NCBI RefSeq assembly: GCF_002952055.1
Contig: NZ_CP021255.1
Location: forward strand, 994,851 to 1,058,850
Origin: Desulfobulbus oralis
Lineage (GTDB): Bacteria; Desulfobacterota; Desulfobulbia; Desulfobulbales; Desulfobulbaceae
Direction: 5' to 3'
DNA length: 64,000 nucleotides
Every line of letters starts with the position of its first letter. Position 1 is the stretch's first letter. Shown piece after piece: positions 29,817 to 32,243 of this stretch. The notes beneath the pieces are model-generated. The model searched no databases. It was not told where the DNA came from and saw only the letters and a program-made list of their open reading frames with translations. A program made the position numbers and the translations under genes.

Positions 29817-32243
29817 TCAGTTTCTGATCGGTGTCCACTGACCGCTGCGTTCGTCGTAGGCGAAGAGTACCGCCAGTTTGGAGGCCCGCCCCCCGCTGCT
29901 GTCCATGCAGCTGAGTTCATAGATCTGCCGTGCGCCTTCCCGGCGCAGGAAGGTGGCCTTGAGCGAAGCCAGGTCTTTTTCAGGGATGTTGGGAAAGCTG
30001 CTGCGAAAATAGGCGGCGCCCCGCGCCTCCAAAGCCTTGCCCAGATTGGCCTGACCCGAATGCTGCCGGTGCTGGGCAAGCTGGCCTTCGAGCCTGCGCT
30101 GCAGCTCGACCACCTCGGGGCTCTGATCATAATGGCCGCTGTTGAGCCGGGAAAGCGCTGCATTTTCCAGACGAAGCGCAGAGGCCCAATCCCGCCTGCC
30201 TGCGGCGCGGGACGCCTCTCTGAGCGCCTGATTGGCAAAGGCCACATCTCGGGTGCGCTCGACCTGATGCAGCAAGTCGGCCAGACTCTGCCGTATTTCG
30301 GGGGGGCTGTTATCCGCAAGACTGATGGCCTGCTGATACAGCGCCGCCGCTTCCTTCCATTGCCGCCTTTCAAAGGCCTGTTTCGCTTTCGGGAGCATTT
30401 CATATATCTGCAACTGCACATGGGTGGCATCGATCAGGATGCTGTCTTCCCTGCTGATGTCCTGGCTCGTGGCCTGCATCTGCCTGGCCTGCTGCAGATA
30501 CGAACGGGCGCTGTCCAGCCGGTTTTTGCTCATGGCCTCGGCAGCCTGCCCCAAAGTCCGGCGCAGCCTGAAACCGCTGCGTCGTTTTTGTACAATGGGT
30601 GCATATTCTGCCGTAATGGCCGCAGATTCGGCCGCAGATTCCCGTAGTCTGGTTTCCGCCTCACGGTACAGATCGTCTGCGTTGTCCCAGTTGTTCTGTT
30701 TTTCCGCCTGCGCGGCCTGCTTCAACAGCAGGCCCACGCTCGTCTTTTTGACGATGGCGTCAAGGCGTTTTTGTTCGTCGCCCAGAACAGGGTAAGCCGA
30801 GATATAGTTCAGAGCCTGGCTGTAGGAGCGTATGGCCTCATCATCCTGACCGTTTGCCAGCTGCTGCGCTGCAGCCTGCTCCATTCTGGCCATTTCCCCC
30901 AAGGCCATGGCCGTGTCCCTGTCCACATAGTTGCCCTTGTACTTGACCCGGCTCCTGTGCGTACTTTCAACCAGGGCCGGCTCAGCGAGCATTTTGTTGA
31001 TCTTCTTTTTCAGGCCGCCTTTTCTGAACCAGAGCACAGTCAGTCCGGGCATGTTGTCCCGGACGTTTTCCAGAACCTCTTTCGCGTTTGCGTACTGCTT
31101 TTGGTCTATATAGTTTTGACCATCCTGAATACGCCTGTTGATCATGCTCAGCGTGGATTGGTCGCTCATGGCCAGGGTAAAAATCCAGAAAGCAACGACC
31201 ACCCCCAGGGCACCCAGGAGGATGCGCCTGAGCGGAAAGTCTTCGGGCAGCCAGGCCATTTTTTGCTTTGGTATCGGGGGGCCGCTTTCTCCACTTGCCT
31301 GGGTATGCTCATGAGTGGCGCCCTTGGCTGCCGCGCTCTCCTGTTCGCTCAGGGCATCTGTGAGAGAAGCGGTAATAAATGAGGACTGCTGCAGGCGCTG
31401 GGCAAGGGCCTGGGCATCGGGGTGATCCGGAATACGCGCCAGAATGGCCTGGGCATACTCCACCGCCTTGCCGTAGTTGCCCGCATCCTCCTGCTTTTTG
31501 GCCATGGCAAAGAGCTTTTTTGTCTCCTGCTTGGCTTTTTTTACCTTTTCTTCGGCTTCGTCCCGTTCGGGAAACCACAGGCTGGGGGGCAGCTCATTCA
31601 GGCGTTTGCCCAGAATGTAGAGCTGGTTTTGTGCCAGCAGGTCGCGTATTTCCTGAATCTGGTCCTGATACTTCCCCGGATCTTCCTCAGGAATTTCCTC
31701 GTCCATGCCAAACGCAGGATTGAAATCGTCTTCCTCCAGCATGCCGAGCAGGCTTTCCTGCTCTTTGTTGCTCTTGGCCGGACTGTCCAGGGGCAGGTCT
31801 TTTTTGTGCTCGTCGTACCACTCGGTAGCATCGGGATTGACCGGATTTTCCACCTTGTAAATGCGGCCGGTGATCAGGCTGGCCAGATAAATCACCAGGT
31901 CCGGCAGAGAGGGCTGTCTGGCCCACTGGGCGGCAATGGCAAAGCTGTCGTCGTCCTCATTGAGTGCCGGGTGATACATCGGGCTGAGCGCCTCGACCTT
32001 GGGTGCATTCTGCGGGAAACCCAGGGGCAGGGTAATCAGAATGCGGTGTTTCCGCCCCACACTGATGCCGTCTTCATCAGGCACGTACGCCCGCATGTTG
32101 AATTCAAGCTCGTATTTTCGAGGCGGCTCCCCACGGGTGCCGGCAAGGGCAATATTGGCATACTGCTTCAGAAAGTTTATGAGTTTGTCGCGCTCACTGT
32201 TGAGGTAACCGCTTTCTGTAACGAGCTCGGGGGCGTTTGCCAT
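29817..32243 (-). CDS. membrane protein with inactive E2 (UBC)-like domain
   Basis: An 808-residue protein of unknown function. Residues 30-145 follow the ubiquitin-conjugating E2 pattern: a beta-meander, LPLGFPQNAPKV, the HP of MYHPAL (91-92), W107, PSLPDLVIYLASLITG and VENPVNPDATEWY. No cysteine occurs anywhere in this domain, so it cannot form a thioester. A charged, partly coiled region with a TPR-like unit (about 230-285), one transmembrane helix (about 340-359), and a long helical, tetratricopeptide-like C-terminal half follow. ATG 32243 or 32252 are the possible starts. It diverges from groES. Confidence 0.7.
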   Translation of the reverse strand: MANAPELVTESGYLNSERDKLINFLKQYANIALAGTRGEPPRKYELEFNMRAYVPDEDGISVGRKHRILITLPLGFPQNAPKVEALSPMYHPALNEDDDSFAIAAQWARQPSLPDLVIYLASLITGRIYKVENPVNPDATEWYDEHKKDLPLDSPAKSNKEQESLLGMLEEDDFNPAFGMDEEIPEEDPGKYQDQIQEIRDLLAQNQLYILGKRLNELPPSLWFPERDEAEEKVKKAKQETKKLFAMAKKQEDAGNYGKAVEYAQAILARIPDHPDAQALAQRLQQSSFITASLTDALSEQESAAAKGATHEHTQASGESGPPIPKQKMAWLPEDFPLRRILLGALGVVVAFWIFTLAMSDQSTLSMINRRIQDGQNYIDQKQYANAKEVLENVRDNMPGLTVLWFRKGGLKKKINKMLAEPALVESTHRSRVKYKGNYVDRDTAMALGEMARMEQAAAQQLANGQDDEAIRSYSQALNYISAYPVLGDEQKRLDAIVKKTSVGLLLKQAAQAEKQNNWDNADDLYREAETRLRESAAESAAITAEYAPIVQKRRSGFRLRRTLGQAAEAMSKNRLDSARSYLQQARQMQATSQDISREDSILIDATHVQLQIYEMLPKAKQAFERRQWKEAAALYQQAISLADNSPPEIRQSLADLLHQVERTRDVAFANQALREASRAAGRRDWASALRLENAALSRLNSGHYDQSPEVVELQRRLEGQLAQHRQHSGQANLGKALEARGAAYFRSSFPNIPEKDLASLKATFLRREGARQIYELSCMDSSGGRASKLAVLFAYDERSGQWTPIRN

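Follow-up and report, generated by a model that had tools for sequence, protein, structure and literature searches.

A cysteine-less E2 (UBC) fold in a predicted membrane protein of Desulfobulbus oralis, and its relatives

The gene and its product

We have analyzed a stretch of 64,000 nucleotides (the window) from the genome of Desulfobulbus oralis, which consists of a single contig of 2,774,417 bases. The gene under study is located on the minus strand (an earlier note on this DNA had given no strand), with its ATG at 32243 and its end at 29817, and codes for a protein of 808 aa; all its features given below are on this same strand. From the N-terminus onwards, the protein comprises a predicted cytosolic E2-like domain, an acidic linker with TPR-like repeats, one transmembrane (TM) helix, helical repeats and a C-terminal alpha/beta domain. 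Upstream, and divergent from it, lie two genes that we take to be groES and groEL. The convergent gene downstream is presumably a sugar-phosphate isomerase of the kdsD type, and further beyond are what we assume to be dsrA and dsrB, all these names being given from sequence and general knowledge. A promoter and terminator scan of the gap on the groES side found nothing.

The E2/UBC-fold domain covers residues 15-150 (31794..32201). It is followed, on the predicted cytosolic side, by a TPR-like repeat at residues 253-281 (31401..31487), which is sub-threshold here (Pfam TPR_19, 0.00062) and stronger in relatives. The single TM helix, placed at residues 341-359 (31167..31223) by a hydropathy scan of the relatives and its position in the window protein, leaves a tail of 449 residues with TPR-like matches, so that the membrane helix and helical-repeat tail described in the earlier note are both there. 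Nearly all the complete long homologues have, in the same way, one strong TM segment, preceded by the E2 domain and by an acidic/TPR-like stretch. The N-terminus is probably inside and the E2 domain cytosolic, since positive charge is usually higher before the TM helix than after it in most relatives, an orientation predicted from hydropathy and charge only.

The tail starts with a predicted periplasmic helical/TPR-like region, residues 360-708 (30120..31166), with weak Pfam TPR and MIT-like matches in the window protein and TPR matches over the cut-off in relatives; the MIT match was treated as TPR-like helices. It ends in a conserved domain, residues 709-808 (29820..30119), defined by alignment and by an AlphaFold2 model (pLDDT 91) that shows a long helix and a four-stranded antiparallel sheet. 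A search with this fold gave nothing significant, the best match being to IseA (E 0.067) and the following ones to NTF2-like proteins, and its profile matches in PDB were short and spurious. This predicted periplasmic domain carries the only cysteine of the protein, Cys779 (29907-29909), which is nearly invariant in the family.

Evidence for a true E2 domain

The earlier note had recognized an E2 core at residues 30-145 from a series of motifs, and these are found at the residues claimed: LPLGFPQNAPKV, HP at 91-92 (31968..31973), W107, PSLPDLVIYLASLI and NPVNPDATEWY. Pfam UQ_con matched residues 57-148 with an E value of 4.8e-4, below the curated cut-off of 27 bits, which was passed in relatives (28.6, 27.1, 29.2 and 30.4 bits; loci L038, L054, L143 and L144). 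Searching PDB sequences with phmmer retrieved UBE2C at 8.9e-5 for the window protein, and at 8.8e-11 when a profile of 19 homologues was used. This profile found 241 PDB sequences below 0.01, and all 60 among the matches listed were E2s. The note had also proposed structure prediction and a fold search against PDB as a check. The AlphaFold2 model of the domain had a mean pLDDT of 90.1, and the 50 Foldseek matches listed were all E2-type folds, either catalytic or inactive, including the inactive Fts, with moderate TM-scores (0.5-0.64, normalised by the query). The N-terminal helix, the four-stranded meander, the HP motif and the C-terminal helices of the UBC fold could all be recognized in the secondary structure of the model and in the Foldseek matches. 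Chance similarity was rejected, since UQ_con, phmmer, the profile, AlphaFold2 and Foldseek agree on an E2; residues 15-150, approximately, are a true E2/UBC domain.

The catalytic position in the window protein and its relatives

The position of the catalytic cysteine, five residues ahead of W107, is occupied by Ala102 (31938..31940). Cys779 being the only cysteine of the protein, the E2 domain has none, as the earlier note had said. The asparagine of the HPN motif of active E2s is also missing, the window protein having HPA and most relatives HPD. The domain has thus the UBC fold with its cysteine replaced, as in eukaryotic UEV proteins.

The same note had asked if the cysteine is always lost in homologues. 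This holds for the family of the window (f1) and fails for its two sister families (f6 and f13). Counting distinct loci, the catalytic position was Arg in 41 of the 44 in f1, with Ala or Ser in the small clade of the window, while Cys was found in 38/42 in f6 (the rest being Ser, His or Arg) and in 5/11 in f13 (the remainder Lys or Arg). Some f6 genomes have in addition a shorter E2-membrane paralogue of about 540 aa (L052-L055, L149), with Arg or Pro instead of Cys at this position and with no neighbour of the DUF4388 type described below. Altogether, the residues other than Cys found across the family are R, A, S, K, H and P. In a profile including the Cys-bearing members, their Cys aligned with the catalytic one of UBE2C ("aici" over "NICL").

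The tree needs at least six changes between Cys and other residues at the catalytic position. The cysteine was probably ancestral and lost repeatedly, loss being the simpler direction of change because the outgroups L101 and L104 bear Cys. This direction assumes a Cys-bearing ancestor, and we infer it from outgroups that are on long branches.

Distribution and link to conjugation systems

Three families of the Desulfobulbales carry the E2-like gene almost constantly and usually in a single copy. We found this gene in 71 of the 74 genomes of the window's own family and in 112/160 of the order. In a sample of the whole phylum the profile matched in 15 of 394 genomes, 11 of them within the order. 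The strongest match outside the order, at locus L143 of genome G481 (E 2.0e-37 to the family profile), has the Cys and is encoded in one gene set together with ThiF/E1 (1.3e-54), a JAB protease (7.1e-13), an FHA protein and Prok-RING_1 (1.6e-8). The whole set is on one strand (5939-12595 of L143) and includes also a trypsin-like protein, the E2 itself being above the UQ_con cut-off. Since a Cys-bearing E2 sits in such a set, the family is connected to the ubiquitin-like conjugation systems of bacteria, and its membrane form appears to have parted from them. In another genome, G554, three E2-like genes stand in tandem (L103 / L145); their products are about 190-208 aa long and show motifs like HPNWYRGGTWCFGHW and HVNWFQSGTWCHGRW. 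Scanning with exact peptide patterns found no relative of the E2-like protein in viral contigs and one distant match only in genome contigs; such patterns probably miss this divergent family.

The earlier note had seen no E1 or JAB gene nearby, and for E1 this can be extended to the genome. A search for ThiF/E1 (PF00899) in the complete D. oralis genome (G000, 99.99% complete) gave no match. The same search gave matches in 12 of the 14 genomes used as controls, and ThiF/MoeB-family proteins were found in all the 38 relatives tested, unlike in D. oralis. The only JAB-type match in this genome reads as RadC-like. Canonical E1-E2 conjugation is very unlikely in D. oralis because its genome has no ThiF/E1 protein. 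The fold, the missing cysteine and the lack of conjugation machinery argue together for the binding rather than conjugating role that the earlier note had suggested from the sequence.

The f6 relatives might be a different case. There, most members keep the Cys and all the genomes tested encode ThiF-family proteins (as do all those tested of f13), making a catalytic role conceivable, so that the Cys-bearing f6 proteins may be catalytic. More generally, the members that keep the Cys could be active conjugating E2s, with their E1-like protein encoded at another locus, and the family of the window would be their inactive sisters, regulating or binding the modifier like UEVs. The alignment of their Cys with the catalytic one fits this explanation, as does the nearest outgroup located within an E1-JAB-RING-E2 gene set. 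However, the gene has no recurrent E1, JAB or ubiquitin-like neighbour in f6 or f13, the Cys-bearing members within the order have Asp in place of the HPN asparagine, and single f6 members have swapped Cys for Ser, His or Arg keeping the rest. Besides, the ThiF matches in f6 and f13 may be ordinary enzymes of the MoeB/ThiF/TcdA type, and D. oralis lacks any E1. Overall, we consider this explanation unlikely.

A divergent DUF4388 gene as candidate partner

The earlier note had connected the gene with groESL and quality control, and this connection does not extend to the relatives. Apart from the window, the adjacency was found in G030 alone, there with an intervening gene, and it was absent from the other loci surveyed, where the neighbours are kdsD, DUF4388 or Sua5 genes. 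The usual divergent neighbour is actually a DUF4388 gene, located head-to-head with the E2-like gene in 75 of the 88 testable main-gene loci (32/38 in f1, 33/40 in f6 and 10/10 in f13), with a gap typically of 100-400 bases. In f13 the pair is kept although the remaining neighbours differ. The partner family was present in 117/160 genomes of the order, largely the same ones that carry the E2-like gene, a coincidence confounded by shared descent. The conserved arrangement may also reflect merely a shared promoter.

The partner protein has four invariant cysteines besides the DUF4388 domain, and most of the f6 forms and some of those in f13 have a cyclic-nucleotide-binding domain as well. Its four-cysteine N-terminal domain had no name in Pfam or NCBIfam. 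The wider family with this architecture (L034, L035, L057, L059, L062 and others; C16, C41, C73 and C76 in L035) often has a cNMP-binding domain and usually several copies per genome, and nothing clear could be learnt from the gene contexts of the remaining DUF4388 paralogues. Within f6, three of the four Cys-less loci (L120, L121 and L124) lack an adjacent DUF4388 gene, and so do 4 of the 36 testable Cys-bearing ones, figures that come from few events, two of them sisters.

The four invariant cysteines hint at redox or metal sensing, and the cysteine of the E2-like relatives could itself be structural or a redox/metal ligand. The domain would then never have been catalytic in this order, being purely a structural module with an E2 fold. 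The absence of the HPN asparagine and the repeated replacement of Cys by unrelated residues, with the gene retained, agree with such a possibility. Against it, this Cys aligns exactly with the catalytic column of E2s and is common to the outgroup E2 of the E1/RING/JAB gene set, so that this alternative looks improbable to us.

The partner gene was not found in the D. oralis genome, though the E2-like gene is present. The pair cannot be the function there, and the E2 domain of D. oralis would have to bind something else.

Selection on the window gene

With both the partner and all the ThiF-family genes missing from the D. oralis genome, the gene could be a decaying remnant in this lineage. In the same genus, G026 has only a fragmented copy interrupted by stops and G027 gave no match, and the clade of the window is on a long branch in the tree. 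However, the frame of 808 codons is intact and the E2 domain is more conserved than the rest. In the comparison with the nearest relative, identity is 66% and dN 0.24 for residues 1-150, against 43% and 0.54 for residues 376-690. The dN/dS of the E2 domain was about 0.1, this ratio being rough because dS (1.5-2.2) is near saturation. The E2 domain is the most constrained part of those compared, despite having no cysteine and no partner gene, and we give decay a very low probability.

A possible membrane adaptor

The explanation that we favour, with modest confidence, is that an E2 fold descended from a catalytic bacterial E2 has been exapted, in the way of the UEVs, as a membrane-tethered binding adaptor. 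The protein would be an adaptor of the inner membrane with type II topology (N-terminus inside), whose cytosolic domain would come from a catalytic bacterial E2 and would have lost the thioester cysteine in the lineage of the window. By analogy with eukaryotic UEVs, the cysteine-less domain most likely binds a protein partner. A periplasmic TPR-like platform, which has a conserved C-terminal domain of its own, would be linked to this domain through the TM helix, and binding on one side of the membrane could in this way be coupled to assembly on the opposite side. For most relatives, the product of the divergent four-cysteine/(cyclic-nucleotide-binding)/DUF4388 gene is the likely candidate for a cytosolic partner.

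A broader and more tentative idea, which we regard as rather doubtful, is a transmembrane signalling pair spread over several families of the order. The former E2 domain, with or without Cys, would bind the DUF4388 protein, a putative sensor of cyclic nucleotides or metals, and would signal across the inner membrane to the periplasmic TPR platform. If true, an E2 fold would be at work here with no ubiquitin-like system involved. The family offers a testable partner in the DUF4388 protein, and the coexistence of forms with and without Cys, together with a Cys-bearing outgroup in an E1/RING/JAB set, provides a natural series for studying the passage from conjugating enzyme to binding scaffold.

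Comparison with known systems

E2 folds without the cysteine are familiar from eukaryotes, and the bacterial examples come chiefly from conjugation operons. What we describe here is such a fold in a chromosomal membrane protein that is near-constant across several families of a single order, and no description of this protein family turned up in the open-access papers searched. The eukaryotic UEVs and inactive E2s (Mms2/UBE2V, the UEV domain of TSG101 and AKTIP/Fts, the last being the third-best Foldseek match of the window domain) share with it a UBC fold without the catalytic cysteine, likely acting as a binding module. However, the window protein is bacterial, has a TM helix and a TPR-like tail, and belongs to a host without a ubiquitin system, no ubiquitin-like partner being apparent. 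Neither is its sequence specifically closest to the UEVs, the best matches being UBE2C and other catalytic E2s.

Among bacterial systems, CBASS Cap2 has an E2 domain and can be likened to the window protein by description, not by sequence. The E1-E2-RING-JAB set of G481 also has the E2 fold in common, but such sets have a soluble E2, Cys-bearing in L143, together with enzymatic partners, and the window protein has neither the Cys nor such partners. BilB of BilABCD (PMC11354881) has likewise an E2 fold, the likeness being again one of description and not of sequence. Also comparable are the type 6e proteins of the polyUbl operons (Iyer et al. 2006; PMC1779556). These are bacterial inactive E2/RWD-like proteins that lack the cysteine, for which a binding and not a conjugating role is predicted, and they are located with a polyUbl, a JAB, an E1 and a metal-binding protein. 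The window protein shares with them the cysteine-less bacterial E2 fold and the predicted binding role. It differs in being membrane-anchored and near-constant across several families, with the putative kdsD, groES/EL and dsrAB as neighbours in place of the polyUbl, JAB-E1 and metal-binding genes of those operons, and in a genome without E1.
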